Of a stretch of DNA of 64,000 bases, positions 19,743-39,396 are shown piece after piece (positions within the stretch are counted from its first letter, which is position 1; the number at the start of each line of letters is the position of its first letter). Both the position numbers and the translations under genes were made by a program. The notes beneath the pieces are model-generated. The model saw nothing but the letters and a program-made list of their open reading frames with translations. It was not told the DNA's origin and made no database searches. The stretch is from Candidatus Poribacteria bacterium (lineage in GTDB: Bacteria > Poribacteria > WGA-4E > WGA-3G), in contig JAJECK010000051.1 of the NCBI GenBank assembly GCA_022822085.1, positions 1 through 64,000 of the forward strand. The letters are read 5' to 3'.

Positions 19743-22700
19743 TTATTTTTTCTGTTGCGGTGCTTCATTGATAATCAGATCGTCAAACGCTTTTCCATCT
19801 TTGTCAGTAATTCGCAGATAGAATCCCCATCCATATTCTTCATCGCAAACTTTGACAAGGACGGTGTTCTTACCTTGTTTGAGCGTTACAGGGAATGTGT
19901 ACCTGTCAATTTCTGCATCATGGCTATTGGGATTTGTGAAAACTTCAACACCGTTTACCCACACCTTTCCCTGATCATCGCTATCAAAACGAAATTGAAC
20001 TTGCCGTTTGTCGGGTGAAACGATAGTAGCAAATGCATAAGCAGCACACCAGTCAATATTGTTCCCCAAACCGACATATCCGTTTAGCACTCCATCAGTG
20101 GATTTCTGCCAACGCACCATCTTATTTAATCCATCATAATCTACATTCAGGTCGATATGCGTAATGTCTTCAGGTATGTATGCAGTATTGTATCCGATTG
20201 CATCTGCATTATCAAATGGACCGAGTATTAACCACTTATCTTCGGTGATGAAACCGGTCTTTTGTATCAGTTCTTCAGCTTTCTCAATCATGTCATTTTC
20301 ACGATAAAATTCAGCCAAAACGAGTGAGGCATTTAAACGTACGCTCAATTTATAAGACATATCCTGAATTATCTGATTCAGGATGTCAAGGTAATCTATC
20401 TTGTTTTTGGTGTTTTTGATATCTTCCGCAGCTTGTCTAAAAAACCTGCGTTCAGAACTTGCTAACGTAATAGCGTTTAACTTTTCCTTGAATTGTTCTA
20501 TGGGGTCTTTCTCTTCCAGTGAACTTTTTCGTATTCCATCCCAATCCCACACAAGAATTGTGCCTTCGCCACCTATGCTTGCCATCGTTTTTCTATCAGG
20601 TGATATTGCTAACCGGGACAATCCGTTCCGATGTCCTTCAAGTGTTGTGAGTTTCTCGCTGGTTGCCAAATCCCATACCTCAATCTTACCAGCAGTTAAT
20701 CCACTTAAGAGCAAAGTATCATCAGGTGAAAATGCTAATGTATCATTCCTTTTCACCTTTATATCTTCAATTTGAGTCTGATCCTCACATTTAAAAAAGC
20801 GGGTTTTTCCAAAAAGGGTGGTCACAGCAAGCATCTCCCTATCTGGAGAAAAAACTAAACCGGTGATATGTTCTGTAGTTCTGATGTTGCGTATATTTCC
20901 ATCTTTTTTCTTTTTCGCTTTCTCAAACCACTCTCCTTCAAGGAGGGAACATAATTCAATCCCAGTTTCCACATGCCACATTTGCACCTTTCCTCCCTCC
21001 GTGCCACTGACAATAATCTCTCCATTGGGTGAAAAAACTAACCTTGTGATGTCCAATGGACGGGGGTAATTTAGATCGAATATTCGACGATTTTTTTTCG
21101 GATCTAATAGATATATTTCCTTATATTTGTCATTCTCTATATTCCACAAGTGTATAATACCGTTAGCTCCAACAGCAAGTGTTTTTCCATCTGGTGAGAA
21201 AATTACTTTCCTGGCAAGAGAACTACTGCCTCTCATTGGGCAATTATAAATCTTTAACTCTTGCCCGGTTTGTACATCAGTCAAACGAACCAGATACGCA
21301 CCCATCCTGTGGATACTGGCGAGCTTTGTTCCATCAGGAGAAAATGCATAAAATGAAGACCAACCTTCTCCTATCCGTGTACCTTCAATTCTGAACTTGC
21401 TTGTCGAATTTAAATTGGGTTTCTGTATTGTGTTCAGGTCCCAGAGTGTCGGACTCCTATTGCTTGCAATGCTCGTAAGTGTAGAACTATCCTGAGAGAA
21501 AGCCATTGTGTAAACGCCTGATGGATGTCCTGTAATATGTGTCGGTAGTGGATTCCCTGTCTCAATATCCCATAGCAGTACAGTACCGTCCGAACTCGCA
21601 GTAGCAAGTATGGTGCTATCAGATGAAAATGCTAATGCAGTTGTTTGGCCGATATGTGCCTCAAAAACAGCGAGAGAATCTCCTGTTGTGACATCCCACA
21701 TTTGTACAGTTGTATCTTCATTACCACATACCAAATATTTATTGTCAGGTGAAAACAGTAATTGAAGAGTTTTATTTCTATCGTTCATATCCTCCTGGCG
21801 TTTTTGGAATGTATGTAAATGTTTTCCAGTAGAGGCATGCCATAATCGCACCTGATAATTCTGGCTTCCACTTGCAAGTAGTCTGCCATCAGCAGAAAAT
21901 GTTATTACTTGAACAGAGTTTGCTATACCGACCATATTTTCTTTAGGTGCTTTAAGGGTAGCAATCTTTTTCTCGGTCTCTATATCCCAAATCTCAATTT
22001 GATCATTTTCTCTGTTTCCTCCTGCAGTTGCGGCTATATCCTGTGTTAAAGCAATCAGATGATTTTCTACCAATGATACTGCGAATTCCCCTTCTGTATC
22101 TATTGTCTCAACTTGCTTAATGTCAGGATTTAAAGTACTTATTGAATAAATCACATTCTTTTTAGAAAACCGGTATCCAATACTAACAAAAGTTTTGCCG
22201 TTTTGGTCCAATCGCAACGCCTTTGCCTCAGGGGGAGTTCTGTCAAGTTGCACTCTTTGAAAAGTTGTTGTATCCCATACCTGGAATTCGCCACCATAAA
22301 ACCTGGTCCCTCCACCATTTACGAGGTACCGTCCATCTGATGAGAAAGCAAGCGATCCACACGGACCAGGAAACAGATGGAATTCCTTACCTGTATTCAC
22401 ATCATAAAGCCAGATTCCAATAGCAGTTCCCACAGCAAGCTGATTGCCGTCTGGAGAAAACTGGACAGAATAGATTTGACCTTTACCTAAACGCGCTCTT
22501 GCATGTTTAGGTAATTCCCATTGTGAGAAGTGTTTCGTCGTCCCGTCTTCTTGTGTTCTTTCAGAAAGCGGCAAATTTTCCTTAGGTTGCTGTTCAGAAA
22601 TTAGGTCATTATTTTCTGTGTTTACACTCCCAAGTTGCTTTTGTAAATCAGGTTCCAACACAAGGTTTACCATAATGGGTGCATCAACAATATCAACCGT

Positions 22701-23489
22701 CATTTCCGAGTTTGCATCCAAACTATAGGAAGGTTGAAAACGCCTTAAGAATCTACTGTTTCCAAAACTTAACATGAGCAACACTACCACACAGGTTGCG
22801 GCAGCGGTTAACCATGGAACAAACGGCTTACTTGCAGATGGCACTACAGGTTCTGTTTTGGCAATCTCACGCATAATGTTTTCTGTGAGATTTGGTGTGA
22901 TTTTGAAATGTTCTAATGCTTCTCTTATCATCGGCTCCTGTTTCCTTAACCGTTTCTGTGCTCGGTGAAGACGGCTTTTGACCGTATTTGCCGATACACC
23001 CAAAAACTCACCGATTTCTGCACATGTCATTTCACCGAAATAGTGTAAGGTCATGACAGTACGTTCGCTTTCCTGTAGTTTCGCAAGCAATTTTTGCACA
23101 ACTTCGCGCTGTGCTTCTACCGCGACGCGCTCCTTTTCTTCAACGACATATTCAGAATAGGCTGCTTCTTCTAATTGCTCGTTGTCCACCTGTTCCAGAT
23201 GCTCAAGGGATTGTATATGCATGCGTTTTTTGCGAAACCACGCATAGCAGTGTCGCCTTGTAATCACAGACAACCACCCCGCAAAACGTTGTGGATCCTT
23301 TAGTTTTTCCAATTCCCTATAAGCAGTCAGAAAGGCATCTTGTGTAATTTCTTCAGCGATATGAAAATCTCCGATAATACGCAAGGCAAGTGCGCATATC
23401 TGCTTCTGATATTTAGTCACTAACGATGTAAATGCGTCATCGTCGCCTGAAAGAACGAGTCTGACGAGTTCAGTGTCATTGTGTTGCAT
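19743..23489 (-). CDS. ECF sigma factor fused to a transmembrane WD40 sensor
   Basis: A 1248-residue fusion. Residues 1-75 are a sigma region 2 (A-E-E-I-T-Q-D-A-F, W-L-S-V-I-T-R-R-H) and 130-190 a region 4 helix-turn-helix (T-V-K-S-R-L-H-R-A-Q). One membrane helix follows at about 222-242. WD40 repeats fill about 330-960, enough for two propellers, with repeated S-P-D-G and W-D-(I/V)-x-T-G motifs. A helical region and a C-terminal beta-sandwich (about 1090-1240) end it. The layout is a sigma factor tethered to the membrane by its own extracytoplasmic sensor, as known from planctomycete-type ECFs with long C-terminal extensions. No separate anti-sigma gene is adjacent. Confidence 0.88.
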   Translation of the reverse strand: MQHNDTELVRLVLSGDDDAFTSLVTKYQKQICALALRIIGDFHIAEEITQDAFLTAYRELEKLKDPQRFAGWLSVITRRHCYAWFRKKRMHIQSLEHLEQVDNEQLEEAAYSEYVVEEKERVAVEAQREVVQKLLAKLQESERTVMTLHYFGEMTCAEIGEFLGVSANTVKSRLHRAQKRLRKQEPMIREALEHFKITPNLTENIMREIAKTEPVVPSASKPFVPWLTAAATCVVVLLMLSFGNSRFLRRFQPSYSLDANSEMTVDIVDAPIMVNLVLEPDLQKQLGSVNTENNDLISEQQPKENLPLSERTQEDGTTKHFSQWELPKHARARLGKGQIYSVQFSPDGNQLAVGTAIGIWLYDVNTGKEFHLFPGPCGSLAFSSDGRYLVNGGGTRFYGGEFQVWDTTTFQRVQLDRTPPEAKALRLDQNGKTFVSIGYRFSKKNVIYSISTLNPDIKQVETIDTEGEFAVSLVENHLIALTQDIAATAGGNRENDQIEIWDIETEKKIATLKAPKENMVGIANSVQVITFSADGRLLASGSQNYQVRLWHASTGKHLHTFQKRQEDMNDRNKTLQLLFSPDNKYLVCGNEDTTVQMWDVTTGDSLAVFEAHIGQTTALAFSSDSTILATASSDGTVLLWDIETGNPLPTHITGHPSGVYTMAFSQDSSTLTSIASNRSPTLWDLNTIQKPNLNSTSKFRIEGTRIGEGWSSFYAFSPDGTKLASIHRMGAYLVRLTDVQTGQELKIYNCPMRGSSSLARKVIFSPDGKTLAVGANGIIHLWNIENDKYKEIYLLDPKKNRRIFDLNYPRPLDITRLVFSPNGEIIVSGTEGGKVQMWHVETGIELCSLLEGEWFEKAKKKKDGNIRNIRTTEHITGLVFSPDREMLAVTTLFGKTRFFKCEDQTQIEDIKVKRNDTLAFSPDDTLLLSGLTAGKIEVWDLATSEKLTTLEGHRNGLSRLAISPDRKTMASIGGEGTILVWDWDGIRKSSLEEKDPIEQFKEKLNAITLASSERRFFRQAAEDIKNTKNKIDYLDILNQIIQDMSYKLSVRLNASLVLAEFYRENDMIEKAEELIQKTGFITEDKWLILGPFDNADAIGYNTAYIPEDITHIDLNVDYDGLNKMVRWQKSTDGVLNGYVGLGNNIDWCAAYAFATIVSPDKRQVQFRFDSDDQGKVWVNGVEVFTNPNSHDAEIDRYTFPVTLKQGKNTVLVKVCDEEYGWGFYLRITDKDGKAFDDLIINEAPQQKK

Positions 23490-23604
23490 TTGTCACCTCT
23501 TAGAATAGATAGTTTGATTACTTCTTTATATCTGTGACGCGATTTAATGCTTAGTTGGGTGCATAAATTAATGGAAATTTGAGAAAAACGAATTAAAATT
23601 GAGG

Positions 23605-26600
23605 TTATTTCAATATTTTCAAATCTGAAAAAGGGTTTCCATCTGTATCAGTGATACGCAGGATAAAGGCACATGCCCCTTCTTCATTACATACCTTTAC
23701 GAGGATACTGTTTTTACCTTGTTTAAGTGTGACAGGAATGATATATGTATCGAGCCTAACAGCAAAGGTTTTGGTATGTGTGAATTCTTCTTTGCCGTTT
23801 AGCCATAATTTTCCTTGGTCATCACTATCAAACCGTAACTGGATTTCACGTTCATCAGGTGAGGTGACGGTAGCGAAGGTGTAGAAGACTTGCCAATCAA
23901 CGTTCTTTTCTCCGAGATGGATATAACCATTTAATTCCGTATCGCTGAACTTTTTCCAACGCACAGGTCCGACTTGTCCATCATATTTTGCAGCTAAGTC
24001 AATTTCTGTGATGTCTTCAGGGATGTATGCAGTATCAAATCCTATTTTACCAACATTATCAAATGGAGCAAGGACCATCCATGCATCTTCTGTAACATAA
24101 CCCGTTTTTTGAATGTACGCATCTGCTTCTTCATGCATGCCACTTTCGCGATAATATTCAGCTAAACTAAAATTGGTATTTATCTGAAGTCTTAAACTAT
24201 TTGGAGTATCAGTGTCAAGTTCAGCAGACATATCGTTGATTTTTTGAATATACGTCCCTGCTTCTTTAGACATACCTTTGTCCCGATAGAATTTAGCAAG
24301 ACTCAGAGACGCGTTAGACTGAAGCGTCAGACTTTCTATGGGAAGGTTTGCGGTGAGAGAGTCAATTTTCTGAAGGTGTTCATCCGCTTTTTCATCGATG
24401 CCATTGTCGTGATAGAACATAGCCAAAACCAGATGTGCATTCAATTGGATACTCAGACTATCGGAGAAAGCGTCAATCAATTTATTTACCATTTCAGTAT
24501 AACCATCTTTGTCCTGAACTTCTTTACCGATTTTGCCAATTCTTGCGAATAGCTGACGGTGAAAACTTGGGGATGTTGTGACATTCTGCCCACCCTCATA
24601 ATCTGCAGCGGATAAGTATTTTACAAATTCCCCATACGCAAATTCATACCATTCGTTTGCGAGATATATCTCTCCATTCCACAATACATGATCAGAGATT
24701 TTTGGTTTCTGTGCTGAATGTTCAAGAAACTGCAATACAGTATCTGTTAACTCTTCTTTTGTGAGTAGGTTAACTTTAGAATCTCCATCTTGACCATCTC
24801 CGCCTGCATTAGCAAGAACTTTTTCCCAGTCCCATAATAGGATGGTAGCGTCTCCAACACTCATAAGTGTCTTACGATCTGGTGAAAATACTAAATCTTC
24901 GATAAATAAAGAATGGCCATCAAGCGTGGTGAGTTTGTCTCCAGTCGCTACATCCCATAACCGAATTTTTCCACCCCAGTAACCGATAATGAGGACTTTA
25001 TTATCTGGTGAAAAGATGAATGTATCTCCATCTTCCTCTTCAGAAAAAAGCAGTTCCTTAAAGTGAGGTTGTTTCGCTCTTCCTATCATACGTATCCTTT
25101 TTAAACTTCCAACAGCAATTAGGGAACCGTCTGAAGAAAATGCAAACTGTAGTATAGGTTCTCTATTCTCATCGTCATCCGGCAGCTCCTCAAAGAAAGA
25201 ACTTAACATCGTACCAGTTTCCACATCCCACAATTGAACTTGGCCATCTTGTGTGCCGCTGACAATCTTTTTCCCATCCGGCGAAAAGGCTACAGTTCGG
25301 TTAAAAGGAGCGTCATCAGAATCATTATCGTGGTCTGAGGTAATTATCTCCCGTTTTTCACCGGTTTCTATATTCAATAAGTGGATTTTATTGGTAGCAC
25401 CTTGCGCTAAGATTTTTCCATCAGGGGAAAACACCCTTCCAGTACCCCATGGGAAAGACTTCAACTCCCGTCCTGTGTGAACATCATTCAGACGCAGCAC
25501 CCAGTCATTAAAGTTTGGTTTCGTTGGGTCAGTTTGTTTACCGTGATTTAACAGTTTTGTTCCATCAGGTGTAAACACATACTCACTATACATATGCCAA
25601 TACAAATGTTCCTCAAGCATTGCTTTGGTTATGGAAGTTGTTTTTTGTAAGTTTTTCAGATCCCATACGGTGAGTATACCTTCGTTTGATACACTGACAA
25701 AAGAAGTTCCATCATTTAAAAAAGATGCTGTTCTCATCCACATGTGTCCAGTAATTGTGTTCTGTAAAGGTTTTCTTGTCTCAATATCCCAAAACCGGAC
25801 CGTACCATCAGCACTCCCACTTGCAAGTGTGTTGCCATCTGGTGAAAAAGTTAATTGTTCAACAGTGTTGAGATGACCTGTGAAGGTAGCAATAAACTCA
25901 CCTGTCCAACTATTCCACAGTCTAATAGTGGTATCTTCACTACCACATGCCAGCAGTGAACCATCCGGTGAGAATGCTAATGCCGATGGTCTGCTATTTC
26001 GCTCATTCTTCATAGGGTTGTTTATTACGTCTCTGCCATTTTCCGTTGATACACTCCACATATTGCCTTCTATAGGCTTTTGGAAGACAATTAATTCTTC
26101 TCCAGTGGTTGTCCCCCATATTTGTACTGTGGTATCCAGATTTCCAGTAGCCAGTCGTTTACCATCGGGAGAGAATTCCATAGTCAGTGCTTTGTTTGTC
26201 TTAGTGAAATATTCAGGCAAACTAACTTCTTTCCCAAGTTCTCTAAGCGTTGTTAACTTCTTACCTGTTTTTATGTCCCACACCTCAATTTTTCCTTCAT
26301 CACTCCCGATAGCGGTTTTATCTTCTGTAAGCGCGTAACTTTCAAGATGCATGTAACCCGGTCTTTTCCCAAGATTTATGGCTGTCGTCTCTCCTGTCTC
26401 TACATTTACTCTATAAATTGTCTCTCTTGACATGCTGAGACATACAAGCGTTTTGCTATCATTTGTGAACCGTAACGCTTCGGCAGCGGGTAACTCATCT
26501 TGTAATGAAACTTTTCTCCCTGTGGCTACTTCCCGTATCTCAATTCCTGTTTCAAGTGGACTACCTCCAAAACTGGTAACTGGGTCTCCACCAGCAGATG

Positions 26601-27021
26601 CGATGAAGCGACCATCAGGTGAATACGCAATTGTCCTACTCATTCCATGTAATAGTGAAATCTCATTCCCTGTTTCCACATCGTAAACCCAGACACCGGT
26701 ATTACTACCCACTACCATTTGTGTGCCATCTGTTGAAAACTGAATTGTTCCCATGCCTCCCTTTCCATAACGCGCTTTTGCTTCTTTTGACAGATTCCAT
26801 TGTGGATAATTTTCTATTTTATTCTCCGCATCTGTATTGCCGGATTGTACTTGTATATTGTCAGACTGTTTTTTAGTAATAGGATTTTCTTGTTGGGCAA
26901 AAGCATTTCCGAAACCTAATATGATTAGCACTACCACGTAGGTTGCGGCAGTGGTTAACCATGGAACGAACGGTTTACTTGCAGATGGCACTATAGGTTC
27001 TGTTTTGGCAATTCTAACCAT
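23605..27021 (-). CDS. WD40 propeller protein, sigma-less paralogue
   Basis: A 1138-residue paralogue of the sigma-WD40 gene. The first residues (R-I-A-K-T-E-P-I-V-P-S-A-S-K-P-F) match the linker just before the membrane helix of the neighbour. The hydrophobic stretch (about 19-42) now ends in A-F-A-Q-Q and may act as a signal peptide. WD40 repeats cover about 70-720, TPR-like helices 760-970 and a beta-sandwich 990-1135. The codons before the ATG still spell a relic of sigma region 4 (S-R-L-N-R-E-Q), ended upstream by TAA. So a secreted or anchored sensor remains without its sigma output. Confidence 0.82.
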   Translation of the reverse strand: MVRIAKTEPIVPSASKPFVPWLTTAATYVVVLIILGFGNAFAQQENPITKKQSDNIQVQSGNTDAENKIENYPQWNLSKEAKARYGKGGMGTIQFSTDGTQMVVGSNTGVWVYDVETGNEISLLHGMSRTIAYSPDGRFIASAGGDPVTSFGGSPLETGIEIREVATGRKVSLQDELPAAEALRFTNDSKTLVCLSMSRETIYRVNVETGETTAINLGKRPGYMHLESYALTEDKTAIGSDEGKIEVWDIKTGKKLTTLRELGKEVSLPEYFTKTNKALTMEFSPDGKRLATGNLDTTVQIWGTTTGEELIVFQKPIEGNMWSVSTENGRDVINNPMKNERNSRPSALAFSPDGSLLACGSEDTTIRLWNSWTGEFIATFTGHLNTVEQLTFSPDGNTLASGSADGTVRFWDIETRKPLQNTITGHMWMRTASFLNDGTSFVSVSNEGILTVWDLKNLQKTTSITKAMLEEHLYWHMYSEYVFTPDGTKLLNHGKQTDPTKPNFNDWVLRLNDVHTGRELKSFPWGTGRVFSPDGKILAQGATNKIHLLNIETGEKREIITSDHDNDSDDAPFNRTVAFSPDGKKIVSGTQDGQVQLWDVETGTMLSSFFEELPDDDENREPILQFAFSSDGSLIAVGSLKRIRMIGRAKQPHFKELLFSEEEDGDTFIFSPDNKVLIIGYWGGKIRLWDVATGDKLTTLDGHSLFIEDLVFSPDRKTLMSVGDATILLWDWEKVLANAGGDGQDGDSKVNLLTKEELTDTVLQFLEHSAQKPKISDHVLWNGEIYLANEWYEFAYGEFVKYLSAADYEGGQNVTTSPSFHRQLFARIGKIGKEVQDKDGYTEMVNKLIDAFSDSLSIQLNAHLVLAMFYHDNGIDEKADEHLQKIDSLTANLPIESLTLQSNASLSLAKFYRDKGMSKEAGTYIQKINDMSAELDTDTPNSLRLQINTNFSLAEYYRESGMHEEADAYIQKTGYVTEDAWMVLAPFDNVGKIGFDTAYIPEDITEIDLAAKYDGQVGPVRWKKFSDTELNGYIHLGEKNVDWQVFYTFATVTSPDEREIQLRFDSDDQGKLWLNGKEEFTHTKTFAVRLDTYIIPVTLKQGKNSILVKVCNEEGACAFILRITDTDGNPFSDLKILK

Positions 27022-27090
27022 GGGTTTATGTTTCCATAAATGTTGTTGTTCTCGGTTAAGGCGGCTTTATACGGTATATGTTGAAGGGTA
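27022..27090 (-). pseudogene. Relic of sigma region 4 upstream of the WD40 paralogue
   Basis: In minus-strand sense the stretch before the ATG at 27021 aligns with the sigma region 4 coding sequence of the neighbour at about 22915-22990, including GCCGCCTTAACCGAGAACA against GCCGTCTTCACCGAGCACAG. About 75 bases present in the neighbour are missing, and an in-frame TAA cuts it off. Confidence 0.65.
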
Positions 27091-27424: not shown

Positions 27425-27688
27425 CTACTCAAAATAGTCAGCGTTGATTTCGATGAAATGCTCCCATTCCTCTGGAACATCTTCTTCCATGAAGATAGCC
27501 TCGACGGGACATTCCGGTTCACACACGCCACAATCGATGCACTCTTCCGGATCGATATAGAGCATTTCAACTTCTTCGAAGTCGTCAGGTGCATCTGTTG
27601 GATGTGGGTGAATGCAATCTACTGGGCAGACATCAACACAAGAGGAATCTTTTTCGTCAATGCAAGGTTCGCAAATTACATAGGTCAT
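27425..27688 (-). CDS. Thermus-type seven-iron ferredoxin, copy 1
   Basis: An 87-residue ferredoxin with one [3Fe-4S] and one [4Fe-4S] site. By analogy with FdxA-type ferredoxins, Cys9, Cys17 and Cys60 should hold the 3Fe cluster and Cys21, Cys50, Cys53 and Cys56 the 4Fe cluster. The start T-Y-V-I-C-E-P-C-I and the end D-V-P-E-E-W match the Thermus protein closely, with a longer loop (about 26-42). Acidic C-terminus. It is the last gene of the sigma/paralogue cluster and one of three intact tandem copies. A small electron carrier; its redox partner is not in the window. Confidence 0.92.
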   Translation of the reverse strand: MTYVICEPCIDEKDSSCVDVCPVDCIHPHPTDAPDDFEEVEMLYIDPEECIDCGVCEPECPVEAIFMEEDVPEEWEHFIEINADYFE

Positions 27689-27725
27689 ACTGTAGTTCTC
27701 CTTTCAAGAAAGATAATTTATCACT

Positions 27726-28004
27726 TTAAACACTGAGTTGTTGTTCGTAGTAATCAGCGTTTATTTGTATGTAGTGCTCCCATTCTTCGGGAACATCTTC
27801 ATCAAAAAATATAGCCTCGACGGGACATTCTGGTTCACATACGCCACATTCAATACATGTATCCGGGTCGATAAAAAGTTGGTTTACACCTTCAAAATCG
27901 TCTGCTTCATAATCAGGGATTGGTCTTATGGATTCACAGGGGCAGACATCTACACAAGAAGCGTCTTTTTCGTCAATACAAGGTTCGCAAATTACATAAG
28001 TCAC
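27726..28004 (-). CDS. Thermus-type seven-iron ferredoxin, copy 2
   Basis: A 92-residue copy with the same seven cluster cysteines. The first cluster segment differs (V-C-P-C-E-S-I instead of V-C-P-V-D-C-I), moving one extra Cys by two places. The second cluster motif is C-I-E-C-G-V-C-E-P-E-C-P. The C-terminus is five residues longer (Q-Q-L-S-V). It lies 37 bases upstream of copy 1 on the same strand. Confidence 0.92.
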   Translation of the reverse strand: MTYVICEPCIDEKDASCVDVCPCESIRPIPDYEADDFEGVNQLFIDPDTCIECGVCEPECPVEAIFFDEDVPEEWEHYIQINADYYEQQLSV

Positions 28005-28056
28005 TGTATGCTCTCCTATTATTATATACTATTTTCCTAATTTGTCAAATAAATGT

Positions 28057-28323
28057 TTATTCTTGAAAGTAATCAGCGTTTATTTGTATGAAATGTTCCC
28101 ACTCTTCCGGGACTTCATCATCCACATAGATAGCCTCAACAGGACATTCAGGGACGCAAACATGACAGTCAATACACTCTTCTGGATCGATATAAAGTTG
28201 TTCTACTTCTTCATATTCGTTTGGGTCTACGTGCCGCATTGGGTGTATGCATTCTACAGGACATACTTCAGCACAAATGTGGTCTTTTACGTCAATGCAT
28301 GGTTCGCAAATTACGTAGGTCAT
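28057..28323 (-). CDS. Thermus-type seven-iron ferredoxin, copy 3
   Basis: An 88-residue copy with all cluster cysteines present (C-E-P-C near the start, C-I-D-C-H-V-C-V-P-E-C-P later; the usual Gly is His). Its first 72 bases are almost identical to the truncated ferredoxin piece at 29179-29250, with one difference, which shows a recent duplication. It lies just downstream of the last paralogue of the unrecognised repeat family. Confidence 0.92.
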   Translation of the reverse strand: MTYVICEPCIDVKDHICAEVCPVECIHPMRHVDPNEYEEVEQLYIDPEECIDCHVCVPECPVEAIYVDDEVPEEWEHFIQINADYFQE

Positions 28324-29432: not shown

Positions 29433-30263
29433 TTAATAATAAGGACTGCTTGTGAACAACTTTACATAGTTCCAATTGATATCCGATTTCCATTCTGGCT
29501 TAACTTTTTTTACGTCTCCCATGCTGTTTCCACTTGCCCTATAATCAATTCCAGACATAAATTTTAAGCGGAGTGCCAATTCTTTTATCTCTGCAAGATC
29601 TATTTCGTATTCTTGGTCTTTTTTTAGTTCAAAACCGTTGTGGAGTAAGTACGGTTTCAATCCGTAATCTTCTAATGGACTTTGCAAGCGTTTTGCTAAA
29701 TCTTGAATTCCTGAAAATTGTATATCTGTGGATTCGTTTGCATATCGGGATAAGCTAAAACCGCTATGGCGTACCTGGACTTCTAAGTTCTGTTCTTTTA
29801 TCAAGGTTTCAAGTCTTAACATTTCTGCGTCACGATAACATGTTGGGTCTTCTGACAGGACTATGACAACAAAACCGATATAGTAAATATCGCATTGCAG
29901 TTTTCGTTCTGCCATCAAAGATTCCAATATTTCCCTCACTTCAGAAAGCCGTTTCGTACCTAATGCAAGATGTTCTATCTCCTCGCACATCTCAGATTCA
30001 GTTATTCCTACAGATGTCCTATAGCTTCTATGTTTTCCGTAAAACCCGATAGCTTCTCTTGCTTCTTGTGCTATTTTAGGAATTTCGTCGCGCTCATCTC
30101 TTTCAAGATCCATCCACTGTTTTGCTATTTCTTTTAGATGATCTCTTACCCCATTAGAATCGTCTTCACTAATCAAGAGAGGTCCGCAATCCGAAACCGT
30201 AACGGGCAATACTAACTCTGTAACTGAAGATCGCAATAATTCTTTCACATCGTTCGGGTACAT
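29433..30263 (-). CDS. H-x-G-F repeat protein B (unrecognised family)
   Basis: A 276-residue member of the longer subtype (with D and E). The N-terminus V-K-E-L-L-R-S-S is followed by L-P-V-T-V and G-P-L-L-I-S-E-D-D-S. A charged helical insert (about 50-90) follows. The repeat turns are Y-I-G-F-V-V, R-H-S-G-F-S-L and L-H-N-G-F-E-L, and the end is G-I-D-Y-R-A-S-G-N-S-M-G then a W-K-S-D-I-N-W segment. No known catalytic motif and no cysteine pattern for a metal site are seen. Confidence 0.75.
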   Translation of the reverse strand: MYPNDVKELLRSSVTELVLPVTVSDCGPLLISEDDSNGVRDHLKEIAKQWMDLERDERDEIPKIAQEAREAIGFYGKHRSYRTSVGITESEMCEEIEHLALGTKRLSEVREILESLMAERKLQCDIYYIGFVVIVLSEDPTCYRDAEMLRLETLIKEQNLEVQVRHSGFSLSRYANESTDIQFSGIQDLAKRLQSPLEDYGLKPYLLHNGFELKKDQEYEIDLAEIKELALRLKFMSGIDYRASGNSMGDVKKVKPEWKSDINWNYVKLFTSSPYY

Positions 30264-30350
30264 ATTTTTTCCTCCATAGAAGGTTGTGTTTTTGAGTTCT
30301 GATTCGTTCAGATTAATATGTATGTGAATTTCGTGTCTATGCGTTGACCA

Positions 30351-31085
30351 CTACGACAAAGCAGTAGTTATATCTGCATGCGTCCAGTGAATGTCTGTAT
30401 CCAGACCGGGCACTATGTACCCGTGACCGCCTTGAACATAGCGGATACCCACCATGGCCTCCAATCGATTTGTCAACTCCTCCACTTCTGCGATATCAAT
30501 TTCGTCTTCTTGCTTTTTATGCACTTGAAAACCTATATGGAGCAATTTCACGTGTAGTCCGTATTCTATCAACAAGGAGGCGAGATGTTTTGCCAATGTT
30601 TCGGCATCAGCAAACTGAACTTCGGTGTCGTCTTCCTTATGCCGTAAACCGAAACCGTTATGCCGTACTGGAATATCTAAACCCTCTTTTTCATACATTG
30701 ATTCCAGTGTCATCATTTCTTCACTCCGATAATCAACGTTTTCATCTATTAGGATGTCCAAACTAAAACCGCAATCAGTCACTTTCAAAGGCAGTGCCTG
30801 CTCTGTAATTAGTGATTCCAAGATGGCTTTTACCTCTGACGAACGGTGCGTGTCTAAAGCCAGGCGTGTTGTTAGTTTATAAATTTCTGTAACGGTGCGT
30901 CCGACAGAAATTCCATGACTCAAGTGATCGCCATCCATCCACTCTTTTACTATTTCTTCTGCTCGTGCTCGTGTTGCACTATCACTATTAATAATCACTT
31001 TTGGTCCACAATCATAGGTATAGATAGGTAGATTGAGCTCTTCAATTAAACCGTTTAGTATTTCCTCAACTTTGCTTGGATTCAT
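30351..31085 (-). CDS. H-x-G-F repeat protein C (unrecognised family)
   Basis: A 244-residue member of the short subtype, similar to A over its full length: L-E-S-L-I-T-E-Q-A-L-P-L and V-R-H-N-G-F-G-L-R-H-K-E-D are nearly the same in both. The turns are D-C-G-F-S-L, R-H-N-G-F-G-L and L-H-I-G-F-Q-V. The end is G-I-R-Y-V-Q-G-G-H-G. A and C look like the products of a duplication that skipped B, so the cluster grew by more than simple tandem steps. Confidence 0.75.
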   Translation of the reverse strand: MNPSKVEEILNGLIEELNLPIYTYDCGPKVIINSDSATRARAEEIVKEWMDGDHLSHGISVGRTVTEIYKLTTRLALDTHRSSEVKAILESLITEQALPLKVTDCGFSLDILIDENVDYRSEEMMTLESMYEKEGLDIPVRHNGFGLRHKEDDTEVQFADAETLAKHLASLLIEYGLHVKLLHIGFQVHKKQEDEIDIAEVEELTNRLEAMVGIRYVQGGHGYIVPGLDTDIHWTHADITTALS

Positions 31086-31182
31086 AGTTCAGTCTCCTTT
31101 CATTGAAATAGAATAGGTGTCAAGTATAGTCCTACAGAGCGATTTAACTCTGAGAACCACTTTGTCCTGTTGTTTTCTGAAG

Positions 31183-31995
31183 TTACCAGGGCCGGGATGA
31201 ACTCATCCGCGCATCTTTCCAATTAATTTCATTTGTCCAGCCAGGCTTCACACCCTTTTTAGGTCCCATACCGTAAGCACCTACTCTATAATCAATACCT
31301 GTGATAAACATTAGGCGGGAGGCCAATTCCTTAGCCTCTGCGACATTTATCTCAACTTCTCGGTCCTTCTCTAATTGAAAACCATTATGAATCAATCTCA
31401 CTTGTAGTCCGTGCTTTCCTATTTTAGATTGTAAACGCCGTGCCGCTTCCTGCACTTTTGAAAACTGGACATCAGGAGCATCCTCCTTTGGGTATAAGGT
31501 AAAACCCGCATGGCGGACATGAAAAACGTTATCTCTGTCTCCAAAACAACCTTCAAAGGTCATCCTCTCCAGCAGGGTATCGAGTTCTATCATATCGTCA
31601 GTCCGGAATTGCATCGGATTATCCGGGAGAATAACCACTGTAAACCATAAGTGAATGATATTGAAAGGTAACTCTCGTTCTTTAATTAAGGATCGGAGCA
31701 CCTCATTAACTTCCGCAATACGAGTTGAATTTGATGCTAAATGCTCTACTTCGTCATATATATCAGAAATCTTACGCCCTCTGGAAAGACGCCAATGTCC
31801 ACTGATAGTAAAATTTTTTAATTTTTCCGCGATTTCATCTCCCTTCCACCTTCTAATTACCTCCTCCGTGTATGATCTCGTTGCTGAGTTGTCATCTTCA
31901 GAAATCAATAGAGGTCCGTTTTCCACAGAGGTGATTGGCAGGGCAAATTCATTAATCAAGGATCTCAGTAATTCGTTAACATCATTTGGATTCAT
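31183..31995 (-). CDS. H-x-G-F repeat protein D (unrecognised family)
   Basis: A 270-residue member of the long subtype. It shares G-P-L-L-I-S-E-D-D with B and E and ends G-I-D-Y-R-V-G-A-Y-G-M-G-P-K followed by V-K-P-G-W-T-N-E-I-N-W. The second turn is less typical (H-L-W-F-T-V), and there is a 10-residue insert before R-H-A-G-F-T-L. The third turn is I-H-N-G-F-Q-L. No signal peptide. Confidence 0.75.
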   Translation of the reverse strand: MNPNDVNELLRSLINEFALPITSVENGPLLISEDDNSATRSYTEEVIRRWKGDEIAEKLKNFTISGHWRLSRGRKISDIYDEVEHLASNSTRIAEVNEVLRSLIKERELPFNIIHLWFTVVILPDNPMQFRTDDMIELDTLLERMTFEGCFGDRDNVFHVRHAGFTLYPKEDAPDVQFSKVQEAARRLQSKIGKHGLQVRLIHNGFQLEKDREVEINVAEAKELASRLMFITGIDYRVGAYGMGPKKGVKPGWTNEINWKDARMSSSRPW

Positions 31996-32027
31996 AGTTC
32001 ATTCTCCTTCTGCAAAGTCTGTTATGT

Positions 32028-32867
32028 CTAATAAGGCCCGCTCGTAAAAAACGTTATAGAATTCCAATTAATTTTATTGGTCCATCCAGGTTTCACATCT
32101 TTTTCTGGACCCATACCGTATCCACTCGCTTGGTAATGAATGCCTGTCATAAACTTTAAACGGGTTGCCAACTCCTTAACCTCCGCAATGTGTACCTCGT
32201 CCTCTTGGTTTTTCTCAAGCTCAAAACCGTCGTGGAGTACGTGTGTCTTCAATCCGTGTTTTTCCAATGAAGCCTGTAGGCGGCTTGCTAACTCCTGAAG
32301 TCGTGAGAATTGAATATCGGGTGAACCGTTTTCTATTCGAGCTAAATTAAAACCACTATGACGTACTTGCACTTCTAAGTTCTCTTTTTCAAGTAAGGTC
32401 TCAAGTTCTACCATATCTTCGTCACGATAACGTGTCGGGTCTTCTGGAAGTATTACCACATCAAAACCCCGATAGAAAATATCGCACGGAAGATTTCGTT
32501 CTGTGATGAGTGATTTCAAAATATTTCGGACTTCTGGAATACGTTGTGTATCTGAGGCAAGGTATTCTACTTCGTCATAAATATCAGATACAGTTTTCCC
32601 TACAGAGATGCCGTGATTTCTATGATTTCTATGCAAACCTACCTCTTCCCTCAAACGCGCGATACATTCTCGCATTTCTTGCGGAATTTCATCGCTATCG
32701 CTTCTATCAAGGTTCATCCACTGCTGAGCTATATCTTCAAGACGTTCTCTGGGCACTTTAGAATCGTCTTCGCTAATCAGTAGAGGACCATAATTGAACA
32801 AGGTAACGGGTAGGACAAACTCTGCAGTTAAAGATTCCAGTAATTTGTTAACATCATTGGGATTCAT
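32028..32867 (-). CDS. H-x-G-F repeat protein E (unrecognised family)
   Basis: A 279-residue member of the long subtype, the closest relative of B. It has G-P-L-L-I-S-E-D-D-S near residue 27, a charged helical region (50-90), Y-R-G-F-D-V, R-H-S-G-F-N-L and L-H-D-G-F-E-L turns and the V-K-P-G-W-T-N-K-I-N-W tail. The gap to D is 32 bases, consistent with one transcript. Confidence 0.75.
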   Translation of the reverse strand: MNPNDVNKLLESLTAEFVLPVTLFNYGPLLISEDDSKVPRERLEDIAQQWMNLDRSDSDEIPQEMRECIARLREEVGLHRNHRNHGISVGKTVSDIYDEVEYLASDTQRIPEVRNILKSLITERNLPCDIFYRGFDVVILPEDPTRYRDEDMVELETLLEKENLEVQVRHSGFNLARIENGSPDIQFSRLQELASRLQASLEKHGLKTHVLHDGFELEKNQEDEVHIAEVKELATRLKFMTGIHYQASGYGMGPEKDVKPGWTNKINWNSITFFTSGPY

Positions 32868-32913
32868 AACTCAACCTCCTAATGTCTAATCACGTTACAG
32901 TAAAGTTTCGTCT

Positions 32914-33636
32914 TCAACTTTTCCATTCACGCCGTGGGAAACGCCACAAAGAAATTCGGATATTGGCACTTGTGCAACTCGTGGATTTAAAGACTTCCTC
33001 GGAAGGTGGTGTACTGTATGAATCCAACACATAGTTAATGCCGAGGGTATCATCTATCCGTCTCGCAATCTCATCAACTTTTGAGAGAGGTATGTTCGCT
33101 TCAGAAGTTTTCTCTAATCTGAAACCTCTATGGAACAATTTTGCTTTGATGCGTTTCTCCTTTAGGAGCGTTTCAAAGCGATTTGCCACCCCATCAAGCT
33201 GCGTTGGTAGAACCTTCGCCCCCTGTTTTTTTTCTAACCGAAATCCACCGTGAAGAATTTTGACAGGGTACCGCGTTGTGTCATCCTCAGCCAATGTAAC
33301 TAATCGGAAACCGTGATCAGTGAGACAGATAGGTAATTTTTGTGCTGTTATGATAGATTCAAGGAGCACTTCAATTTCTAAAGATTCTAACAATTCTTTT
33401 GAAGGCGAAACAGAATCGGTTTTGGTATAGAATTCCATAATTTCTGCTCGCCCGGGATGACGCGTGTAAATTTTACCATCTTTATTCCATTGATGGATAA
33501 CATCTTTGATGCGTCCCTCTGTGGTATGATCCGATGTGTCTACGTTCTGAGTAGGGGCAATATCAATAACATCAATTGGCAGTCCCTCCTCCGCAATTAA
33601 GGTTTTTAGCAATTCCTTGACGGCATTCGGTGTCAT
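32914..33636 (-). CDS. H-x-G-F repeat protein F, diverged member
   Basis: A 240-residue member, the first paralogue after the sigma factor and the most different. It keeps V-K-E-L-L-K-T-L-I-A-E-E-G-L-P-I at the start, and the turns D-H-G-F-R-L, L-H-G-G-F-R-L and F-H-R-G-F-R-L, each followed by E-K-K or E-K-T. A Trp/Arg-rich end (S-L-W-R-F-P-R-R-E-W) is unique to it. It shows the module most regularly and would be the best seed for a profile. Confidence 0.72.
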   Translation of the reverse strand: MTPNAVKELLKTLIAEEGLPIDVIDIAPTQNVDTSDHTTEGRIKDVIHQWNKDGKIYTRHPGRAEIMEFYTKTDSVSPSKELLESLEIEVLLESIITAQKLPICLTDHGFRLVTLAEDDTTRYPVKILHGGFRLEKKQGAKVLPTQLDGVANRFETLLKEKRIKAKLFHRGFRLEKTSEANIPLSKVDEIARRIDDTLGINYVLDSYSTPPSEEVFKSTSCTSANIRISLWRFPRREWKS

Positions 33637-33696: not shown

Positions 33697-34329
33697 TTAT
33701 CCTGTTTTTGTTTCCTCTTGTTTTCTAAATATGTTGTCAAATTCACCGGGGTATTCAGTCTTCATCCAAGCAACAACTTTTTTCTTTGCGCGATGCAAGC
33801 GGACCTTCGTTGCCGACACTGATATTTCCAATTTTTCGGCAATGTCTTCCAAGGTCATCTTAGGATTTGCCAGTTTCAGTTCAAACACTTGCTGTTCGGA
33901 AATTGGTAGCCGTTGTGCAAGAGCATAGACGATCTCCATCTGTTCTTTTGCGATGATGCGATAGATTGGGGAACGGTGTTCAAGGTCTACCAAATATGCC
34001 TCTGGATTTCCTTCAATTGAACCGATTTCAAGTTTTCTCTGTTCTTTACGAAAGTGTGCTGCAATGAGTTGATGCGCGATGCTAAACAACCAACTGGAAA
34101 AACTTTTGGGATTCCGAAGCGTGCTGAGATTCTGATGCACTTTAATAAATGTCTCTTGCACAAGGTCTTGTGCTGTTTCCCAATTACCAACGCGTCTATA
34201 GAAGAAACTGAGCAGTGGACCTTCGTACCGATGATAGAGAATTTCGAATGCTCCATCCTCATCAACGTCTAAATTTTGATGTTCTAATTCTTCGTCGTGG
34301 TGATCTTCCATTACAACACACCTACTCAT
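33697..34329 (-). CDS. Sigma-70 family (ECF-like) sigma factor
   Basis: A 210-residue sigma factor with region 2 (about 25-95: A-Q-D-L-V-Q-E-T-F-I-K-V, S-W-L-F-S-I-A-H) and region 4 (about 130-185: L-E-D-I-A-E-K-L-E-I-S-V-S-A-T-K-V-R-L-H-R-A). A 24-residue acidic N-terminal extension precedes it. It is 60 bases upstream of the first H-x-G-F paralogue on the same strand. No membrane anti-sigma gene is adjacent, so the paralogues themselves are candidates for its control or its targets (inference). Confidence 0.9.
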   Translation of the reverse strand: MSRCVVMEDHHDEELEHQNLDVDEDGAFEILYHRYEGPLLSFFYRRVGNWETAQDLVQETFIKVHQNLSTLRNPKSFSSWLFSIAHQLIAAHFRKEQRKLEIGSIEGNPEAYLVDLEHRSPIYRIIAKEQMEIVYALAQRLPISEQQVFELKLANPKMTLEDIAEKLEISVSATKVRLHRAKKKVVAWMKTEYPGEFDNIFRKQEETKTG

Positions 34330-37266: not shown

Positions 37267-39396
37267 TTATTTTGCGGGTTCTGTTGCGAGATATTTCGGA
37301 TTCTTTTTGATATTTGACGGATACTGAATCTTCCAAATTTTGGCAGTGTCAAACCATACATCTTTCTGGAATCTTAATTCATCTTTTTGTTTGTATACAG
37401 GTTCAAAAGCTTCGGAATGCGCCTCACGAATGTATAATCGGACAATGAGGCTATTCCAACCGGTGGGAGATAGGTAAAATGCTCTGCGAAGACGCAATGC
37501 GGAATCACAATAGAGAAGCACCCCACCATTTTTGTCCTCCACGGTATCTGGTGATTTTTCTGTGTGGTAGTTACCTATAAAAGCGACATAAGGAAGTGTC
37601 ACTTTTTGACCGTCTTTTGTGTGTGCTGTGAGAGTGAAGGGAGTTTCCTCAAGGGCTGCGTCTATCTGGTAAAATGAGGTATTATCAGGATTTAAGAGTT
37701 GTATGGGACTTCCGGTTGCTGTTTTCGTGATCTGTAAAGGTTGGGGTGAAAAGTACCGGTCTTTTTTTGTATCACTTCCAATAGTCGAAAAGACATGGGG
37801 AAAGTGCATATCACTGTCATTAAACTTCAGATGTGTCGCATCATGTGTATATAGAAATTCTAATGCTTCTTTTTCGGATTGGGCAACATAGACGTGTCTA
37901 AAAAATAGATGTATCCAGTGAGGAAGGTAGTGGTCGGAGTCAATAATAGTTTTGACTCCACCAAGCATGTGCAGTTGATTTCCCCGTCCCCAATTGGCGG
38001 CGACCACATCAGTACTTTCAAGGTTTTCTGACATCCATTTGACGGTTTTTGTCATCGGTCTGTCTCCGGGGAGTGGTTTTCGCAAGGTTTGTGAAATGTT
38101 CAATGACCGTTTTGCATGTGCACCAACAGGGGGCCAGAAAAATAATAGGGATAACACTGCTACAGCGATGCAGGTCGTAAAAACGGCTTGTAGTCGTGTT
38201 GCTTTTAAGAATGTGGGTGTGAACCGGAAACTTATTATTTCATCGTGAAGTGTCTTTGCGAGTGTGTGTATCACTAAAGCGGTAAAGAAGACAATGGCGA
38301 CACCTGTAAAAAAGTCATATCGTTCGGCATCCCGTGTTAGTGCGATCCAACAGAAAAACCATGTGCAAAACGCAACATAAAGCGTGTCATTTGGTAAGTT
38401 TGTTTTGCGTTGCCACGCTTGCAGGACAAAAGTGACAACGCACCCGCCCATTGCTACAAAAAAGAGCGTGTTGTCAAACGTCACTTTAAAAAGTGCCGTG
38501 GCGAGTAAATCTAACGGTTCACGAAAAAAGGTTGTCAGGAGAAAAAGCATGAGTGGGAGCGCCAAAAGGAAGTGTCCGAATCTGTTTCGGGGATGTATAC
38601 CTGTAAGAAGGAATCCAAGGCTACCAAATAGAAAAACCCCACCAAATTTAAAATACCAAAACCTATAATTTGGGCTTTGTAATTCCCCGATGGTTTGCAT
38701 GAGCAAACTTTGACTGAAAAGCACAGTTGTGTTGTCAAATGTATTGAGTTTTCTTAAAACAGTATAGAGCGCGAGCAGGAGTGCGATACTTGTCAAAATG
38801 AGTGCAATGTTTCGGGGAGCTCGTAAAAGATATTTTTCACTTGAAAACGTTGTCTTTGTAAGCAGTAGGTACCGACACACCCGCATCACTAAAAGCGTTA
38901 GTGGCGGTATAATAACCAAAGCGAAGACGTGTGTGGTAAGACCGTCACCACCGCCACGATAGACAGGAGAAGCAAGAATAAGCAGTGGCACGAATATTAA
39001 CGTCCATAGGGCGTAGTATCCTAACCCTTCTTCTGTTTCAGAGCTAAGAAACCGCCAGAGTTCAACACTCATGATAATGACGAGGAAAACGCCAAATCCT
39101 CCCCAGGATAATCCACCGATACAGACGCTGAGGCTGCTTGCCAATGTCCAATAGAGTCTATGGCGTGGATGCTGTGTTCGGAGTGCCTGGAGATAAGTAG
39201 TAATTGTGAGGATGCCTATCAGCAGACACCAGCTGTCACGATCACCAAAACCGACAGAGCTGCGATCAATTCCACCCGGGAGCGTTGCCAACAACACACC
39301 GACGATGCATGAAAAGAGCAAGCCGAACGGTCGATAAAAAAGAGCATCAACACACCGAGTCCAAGGGTAAAACATACCACTGGTATATAAATGCAA
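37267..39396 (-). CDS. STT3/AglB-like membrane protein, C-terminal frame
   Basis: A 709-residue frame; the part after about residue 20 continues the preceding frame. It has about ten membrane helices (to about residue 430) and a soluble C-terminal domain. The region V-V-A-A-N-W-G-R-G-N-Q-L followed by I-D-S-D-H-Y-L-P and H-V-Y matches the position of the W-W-D-Y-G motif of oligosaccharyltransferases, here N-W-G-R-G. Probably a glycosyltransferase-C family enzyme, but the changed motif makes classical N-glycosylation uncertain. The frame begins inside the other part, showing a one-base shift. Confidence 0.72.
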   Translation of the reverse strand: MHLYTSGMFYPWTRCVDALFYRPFGLLFSCIVGVLLATLPGGIDRSSVGFGDRDSWCLLIGILTITTYLQALRTQHPRHRLYWTLASSLSVCIGGLSWGGFGVFLVIIMSVELWRFLSSETEEGLGYYALWTLIFVPLLILASPVYRGGGDGLTTHVFALVIIPPLTLLVMRVCRYLLLTKTTFSSEKYLLRAPRNIALILTSIALLLALYTVLRKLNTFDNTTVLFSQSLLMQTIGELQSPNYRFWYFKFGGVFLFGSLGFLLTGIHPRNRFGHFLLALPLMLFLLTTFFREPLDLLATALFKVTFDNTLFFVAMGGCVVTFVLQAWQRKTNLPNDTLYVAFCTWFFCWIALTRDAERYDFFTGVAIVFFTALVIHTLAKTLHDEIISFRFTPTFLKATRLQAVFTTCIAVAVLSLLFFWPPVGAHAKRSLNISQTLRKPLPGDRPMTKTVKWMSENLESTDVVAANWGRGNQLHMLGGVKTIIDSDHYLPHWIHLFFRHVYVAQSEKEALEFLYTHDATHLKFNDSDMHFPHVFSTIGSDTKKDRYFSPQPLQITKTATGSPIQLLNPDNTSFYQIDAALEETPFTLTAHTKDGQKVTLPYVAFIGNYHTEKSPDTVEDKNGGVLLYCDSALRLRRAFYLSPTGWNSLIVRLYIREAHSEAFEPVYKQKDELRFQKDVWFDTAKIWKIQYPSNIKKNPKYLATEPAK

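Follow-up and report, generated by a model that had tools for sequence, protein, structure and literature searches.

Bacterial extracytoplasmic function (ECF) sigma factors are usually under the control of separate anti-sigma proteins. Membrane-fused ECFs with a sugar-binding domain (ECF52) and ECFs fused to WD40 repeats (ECF57) are already known. ECF48, ECF52 and ECF53 are actinobacterial groups that carry a zinc-finger anti-sigma domain, and for the ECF52 member SCO4117 of Streptomyces coelicolor, which bears a carbohydrate-binding domain on the outside, release by proteolysis has been proposed (PMC8999054). ECF57 proteins, such as that of Singulisphaera acidiphila, have a WD40-like C-terminal extension and a conserved pair of cysteines, possibly forming a link between sigma2 and sigma4 (PMC8999054). 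IutY of Pseudomonas putida (ECF243) is a sigma factor fused to a membrane anti-sigma factor and is released by Prc and RseP (PMC8999054). Kamke et al. 2014 described WD40 domains as highly abundant in Poribacteria; their study concerns the same phylum and its WD40 proteins, and the word sigma is absent from its main text (PMC3909097). Here we analyse two adjacent genes, gene 1 and gene 2 (positions 19743-27090), in a stretch of 64,000 nt (the window) of contig JAJECK010000051.1 (GCA_022822085.1) from Candidatus Poribacteria.

We favour, as the fairly probable account, that gene 1 is one of many trans-membrane sigma receptors, each a single protein, which form a family with exchangeable outer domains that expanded in two Poribacteria genera. 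Such a family would place sensor, anchor and transcription factor in one chain, in dozens of copies, in an abundant sponge symbiont. What sets it apart from the groups above is that both known ideas are united here with expansion within genomes, with a promoter that is nearly private to the sigma fusions and with the replacement of ectodomains. No published description of the poribacterial sigma-fusion family was found in the literature searched, which covered few subscription journals.

Gene 1 joins an ECF sigma factor to a membrane helix and propellers

From the letters alone, a first, sequence-only reading had proposed that a single chain encoded by gene 1 holds sigma regions 2 and 4 followed by a membrane helix, then WD40 propellers and a beta-sandwich. 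In agreement, gene 1 is a single unbroken reading frame of 1248 amino acids with a hydrophobic helix at about residues 220-243, and profile searches matched TIGR02937 (sigma70-ECF; 95 bits, cut-off 42.9), PF04542 (region 2; 53.6 bits, cut-off 24), and PF08281 (region 4; 52 bits, cut-off 25.7), along with numerous WD40 profiles. With regions 2 and 4 only, above the model cut-offs, gene 1 is classed as an ECF (group 4) sigma factor. The sandwich has a weak Pfam match to the glycosyl-hydrolase-2 (GH2) sugar-binding domain and gave no match in a sequence search of the PDB. In a Foldseek search with a modest model of this domain (predicted local distance difference test, pLDDT, 63), PA14-type sugar-binding domains were among the top matches (E ~2e-5), and a glycan is a reasonable candidate ligand for gene 1 on the basis of this modelled fold. 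Together, the ECF profiles, the helix and the outer domains support the proposal of a membrane-tethered sigma factor with a built-in sensor.

Gene 1 resembles ECF48/52/53 in that its ECF sigma continues C-terminally into a membrane segment followed by an outer part. Unlike those groups, the poribacterial family has no zinc-finger anti-sigma (ZAS) domain between sigma and membrane, and the aligned paralogues show no zinc-finger Cys/His motif in their linkers; furthermore, a large propeller that can be exchanged forms its outer half, and dozens of paralogues share one promoter. An anti-sigma fold in the gene 1 linker was considered and dropped, the AlphaFold model being uninformative at the linker. 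ECF57 likewise combines an ECF sigma and WD40 repeats in one chain, but the poribacterial family adds a membrane helix predicted to place the WD40 part outside and lacks the cysteine pair: only C81 in sigma2 is invariant, whereas among 20 paralogues about half have a cysteine in region 4. IutY shares the one-protein sigma/membrane design and provides an experimentally shown precedent for release. It differs in serving iron-siderophore surface signalling, and no propeller ectodomain or in-genome expansion has been described for it (PMC8999054).

The family is expanded in two genera

The linker, helix and juxtamembrane segment form a module with 42 copies in the window genome. In a count across 85 genomes of the Poribacteria phylum, genera g1 and g4, which belong to one family, carried 8-54 or more copies, except for one g4 genome with 2. 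Elsewhere in the order there were 0-3 copies, and searches of other classes and of further phylum members did not find the module. All 80 of the 80 best relatives are named Candidatus Poribacteria. The outer parts across the family include WD40 and BNR/YCF48-type propellers.

In-frame fusions that lack a membrane helix join related sigma domains to other partners as well, namely cytosolic WD40, FtsZ-like, DnaN-like and S9-peptidase parts. Two ECF-type sigma domains are joined to FtsZ-like parts, one with a Pfam Tubulin/FtsZ match of 145 bits (L053:1817-3055, C109) and one assigned by sequence motif only (L060:2341-4098, C63). Another sigma is fused to an N-terminal DnaN (beta clamp) domain (L046:2633-3637, C81) and a further one to a propeller and an S9 prolyl oligopeptidase (L043:2333-5161, C65). 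Helix-less sigma-WD40 fusions are found at L042 (C62), L069 (C98), L038 (C38) and L054 (C110). At L057 (C149) there is a series of sigma-WD40 copies whose sigma domains are truncated or frameshifted and which are apparently decaying.

Outer halves are replaced on a nearly constant chassis

To compare the two halves of the fusions, we took the 85 pairs whose sigma-membrane parts (the chassis) are at least 85% identical. In 42 of these the ectodomains are less than 50% identical, and in 18 they are hardly or not alignable. Synonymous differences in 11 checked pairs were 0.13-0.44 within the chassis versus 0.63-0.80 outside it; therefore recombination, and not constraint alone, separates the halves. 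At two orthologous loci the exchange can be seen directly: in the genome pairs G045/G030 and G044/G041, the flanks and both gene ends align at 79-96% while the central 2-2.5 kb does not. The second of these is the ferredoxin locus of the window, and the alternatives at both exchange loci are the outer types of gene 1 and gene 2. The outer half is thus swapped by recombination on a fixed sigma-membrane chassis.

Most fusion genes share a near-private promoter

A family motif, TTATGCAMCC-N15-YGCGTCAC, forms an ECF-like pair of boxes with fixed spacing upstream of most fusion genes. We surveyed 117 sigma fusions, each with a shuffled upstream control, and found the motif before 88 fusions and none of the 117 shuffled regions, with a spacing of 24 (77 genes) or 23 (11 genes). 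It lies at about -50 in all ten sigma-bearing genes of the gene-1 or gene-2 type, from nine genomes (scores 26.7-32.8; shuffled 99% level, 7.8). Genome-wide in G000, 10/10 exact and 10/16 one-mismatch matches precede sigma-fusion genes; two of the remaining six lie before short frames and four have no nearby gene start. The earlier proposal was that a promoter motif would recur upstream of WD40 and tagged-protein genes. A shared motif was indeed found, but it marks sigma-fusion genes and not WD40 or tagged genes at large, and it is missing at gene 2. No general WD40 or tagged-protein promoter was found; nearly all strong matches are sigma-fusion genes. A looser pattern, TGCAMC-N17-19-CGTCA, was discarded as unspecific, with a modest excess over the reversed control that was also seen in genomes with few modules.

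The simplest reading of this shared, near-private promoter is auto- and cross-activation within the family. Two helix-less fusions, L042 (C62) and L069 (C98), carry the exact family promoter; therefore the regulon spans the membrane/cytosol divide. The region-4 recognition helix also varies with the -35 box of the same gene: T..S helices occur with TGCA (67), A..N with TGAG or TGAA (11/11) and A..L with TGTA (3/3), and the contrast of A..N and TGAG/TGAA is significant (Fisher test; P = 1.7e-11). The arrays at L031 (C4) and L041 (C53) have a second promoter class, TGAGACT...CGAGTCA or GCATCA, paired with the A..N recognition helix.

The near-privacy of the promoter would also be expected if sigma were simply an expression amplifier, a built-in booster that fires its own promoter in a self-sustaining and possibly bistable manner, with the outer domain as the effector. 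This explanation would accommodate the helix-less FtsZ-like, DnaN-like, S9-peptidase and cytosolic WD40 fusions, with C62 and C98 under the same promoter. However, the juxtamembrane segment is kept with sigma and missing in both sigma-less proteins examined (gene 2 and L058:6488-8809), suggesting a dedicated signalling step, and a tethered sigma would require release anyway. We consider the amplifier doubtful.

Gene 2 has lost its sigma domain

Profile searches detected WD40 propellers and the sandwich in gene 2 and no sigma domain. A decayed region 4 containing a TAA had been proposed in the DNA upstream of gene 2, and the comparison with gene 1 confirmed it: the relic at 27029-27080 aligns with region 4 over 52 bp with a score of 56, above the best of 300 shuffles (37). 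Its in-frame translation, TV*SRLNREQQHLWKHKPM, corresponds to TVKSRLHRAQKRLRKQEPM in gene 1, and the TAA stop replaces a lysine codon. Gene 2 had also been thought to retain everything after the linker. This holds for the propellers, sandwich and helix but not for the juxtamembrane segment, as about 30 conserved residues are missing and a signal-peptidase-like AFA|QQ stands in their place. The membrane helix may have become a signal peptide or an anchor, and gene 2 is a probable exported sensor-only protein, judging by this N-terminus.

In genomes G036, G044 and G043, the gene 2 orthologue has a full sigma domain (1388-1390 amino acids) and lies beside the same ferredoxin genes; therefore the ancestor of gene 2 had sigma. 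With the relic, these orthologues support the view that the neighbour's ancestor lost sigma and kept a signal-peptide-like N-terminus. The sequence-only reading had named an intact sigma gene at this locus in relatives, together with an assembly error here, as evidence against its view. The intact genes exist, as just described, but the assembly error is excluded. In the single-contig genome G046, an orthologue 81% identical to gene 2 is likewise sigma-less, and its membrane helix is followed by the identical AFAQQENP junction; a form common to both genomes, in addition to the relic DNA, cannot stem from misassembly. The family motif is missing upstream of both genes, whereas three other sigma-less or partial genes retain it.

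Gene 2 and its G046 orthologue differ with a ratio of non-synonymous to synonymous rates (dN/dS) of 0.20 (dS 0.57; 1138 codons), as low as in sigma-bearing pairs. This rules out a pseudogene, and by this measure gene 2 is under purifying selection. The ratio also bears on another idea, in which a copy without sigma is a displaced ectodomain that persists mainly as a donor for recombination, or else a gene in the course of disappearing. The alternation of two ectodomain types at one locus across species and the many truncated or frameshifted copies (C149, L119) would fit such an origin, but the constraint on gene 2 speaks against it, as do dN/dS values of 0.27-0.31 in three pairs from another sigma-less clade (L067, L113-L117; six genomes), which lacks both sigma and helix. 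These genes look expressed and selected, and we regard donor or decay status as improbable.

Gene 2 is not an isolated case. On a tree of the outer parts, sigma presence or absence changes at least five times, three of them forced by well supported branches, and gene 2 falls within a sigma-less clade of five. The losses take different forms: in L112 an in-frame deletion has left only ~21 N-terminal sigma residues, now joined to the membrane motif, L111 has a partial sigma, and a second sigma-less gene of the window genome (L058:6488-8809, C153) has kept the helix without the juxtamembrane segment. On this tree, sigma has been lost several times in the family, and the loss at the gene 2 locus shows a route from such a receptor to an exported protein.

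It had further been suggested that gene 1 and gene 2 work together, with gene 2 as a soluble or secreted decoy. The genes adjoin on the same strand, have related ectodomains, and export of gene 2 is probable. However, G046 has the gene-2 type only and G041 the gene-1 type only at the same ferredoxin locus, and the window genome has both in tandem; therefore the pair is no conserved unit. In addition, gene 2 lacks the shared promoter, and the propellers of the two genes are 41% identical and belong to separate subfamilies on the tree. A partnership was thus unsupported, and we consider it very unlikely. The placement in different subfamilies also rules out a recent tandem duplication. The gene-1 and gene-2 types behave as alternative alleles at a single locus would.

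Proposed mechanism of the receptor family

In the trans-membrane receptor that we favour, the constant half would consist of the ECF sigma in the cytoplasm, a linker of ~35 residues, a single helix and the juxtamembrane segment, and the variable half of WD40 or BNR/YCF48-type propellers outside the cell, in gene 1 with the PA14-like sandwich. The propellers are predicted to be outside because sigma must be cytoplasmic and there is one helix; homologous ectodomains in a sister genus (L123, L124) start with ordinary signal peptides, which support this placement. Most likely, ligand binding outside would expose the juxtamembrane segment to proteolysis, and a site-2-type protease would then free sigma. 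Regulated proteolytic release is plausible because of the conserved juxtamembrane segment and the IutY precedent. Freed sigma would transcribe from TGCAMCC-N15-YGCGTCA before its own and most other family genes, giving positive auto- and cross-regulation. Gene 2 would be the outer half of a chassis-bearing ancestor that lost sigma, promoter and juxtamembrane segment and is now exported.

Several observations weigh against this account. The AlphaFold model of sigma plus linker showed no anti-sigma contact and was weak outside sigma. Charges occur on both sides of the helix, so that the topology depends on the signal-peptide homologues and the cytoplasmic sigma. Site-2 proteases are present in the window genome and also in 14/14 control genomes, which makes their presence no test of proteolysis. 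No strong promoter target outside the family was found genome-wide in G000, and 29/117 fusions have no strong motif match, some of them having a TGAGACT variant. For the co-change of recognition helix and -35 box, correction for kinship left only two usable pairs (independent changes), and co-inheritance is possible.

If the receptor reading holds, the family would provide a natural modular receptor chassis whose promoter is predicted and may come with a code linking region 4 to the -35 box, and the symbiont might use it to sense glycans or proteins of the host or the community. More tentatively, and in our view slightly short of an even chance, the genes would form a receptor repertoire, in which a constant trans-membrane sigma module, with its own promoter and dozens of copies in each genome, is time and again re-armed by recombination with other outer sensor domains, so that many outer cues feed one self-amplifying transcription circuit, with the exported sigma-less copies as by-products or donors.

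Features of the two genes and their neighbours

Table 1. Coordinates of gene 1, gene 2 and their parts in the window
Feature	Position	Strand
Gene 1: ECF sigma, linker, membrane helix, WD40 propellers, PA14-like sandwich; 1248 aa	19743..23489	-
Gene 1 C-terminal beta-sandwich, PA14/GH2-type sugar-binding-like	19746..20252	-
Gene 1 WD40 propeller ectodomain (predicted), limits approximate	20490..22532	-
Gene 1 conserved juxtamembrane segment FQxPYSLDAxSExTVEIVDAPI, candidate cleavage/signal segment	22665..22760	-
Gene 1 SKPFVPW motif and single membrane helix, residues 220-243	22761..22832	-
Gene 1 linker from region 4 to membrane helix, residues 185-219; family-conserved, no zinc-finger motif	22833..22937	-
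Gene 1 sigma regions 2 and 4, residues 1-184	22938..23489	-
Gene 1 ECF-type promoter TGCACCC-N15-CGCGTCA, ~50 nt before ATG, common to most of the family	23535..23563	-
Gene 2: sigma-less relative, WD40 propellers, TPR-like stretch, same sandwich as gene 1; 1138 aa	23605..27021	-
Gene 2 signal-peptide-like N-terminus (by inspection) with AFA|QQ after residue 42, derived from the former linker and membrane helix	26896..27021	-
Sigma region 4 relic 5' of gene 2, in frame, TAA at 27067-27069	27029..27080	-

Elsewhere in the window, a 709-aa frame (37267-39396) has no Pfam match at 1e-5. A tandem array of related genes of ~240-280 aa (29433-33636) is followed by a stand-alone ECF sigma (33700-34329). 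Beside the sensor genes are three tandem small ferredoxin-like genes (27425-28323; 2x4Fe-4S by motif), and these neighbours are conserved in relatives.

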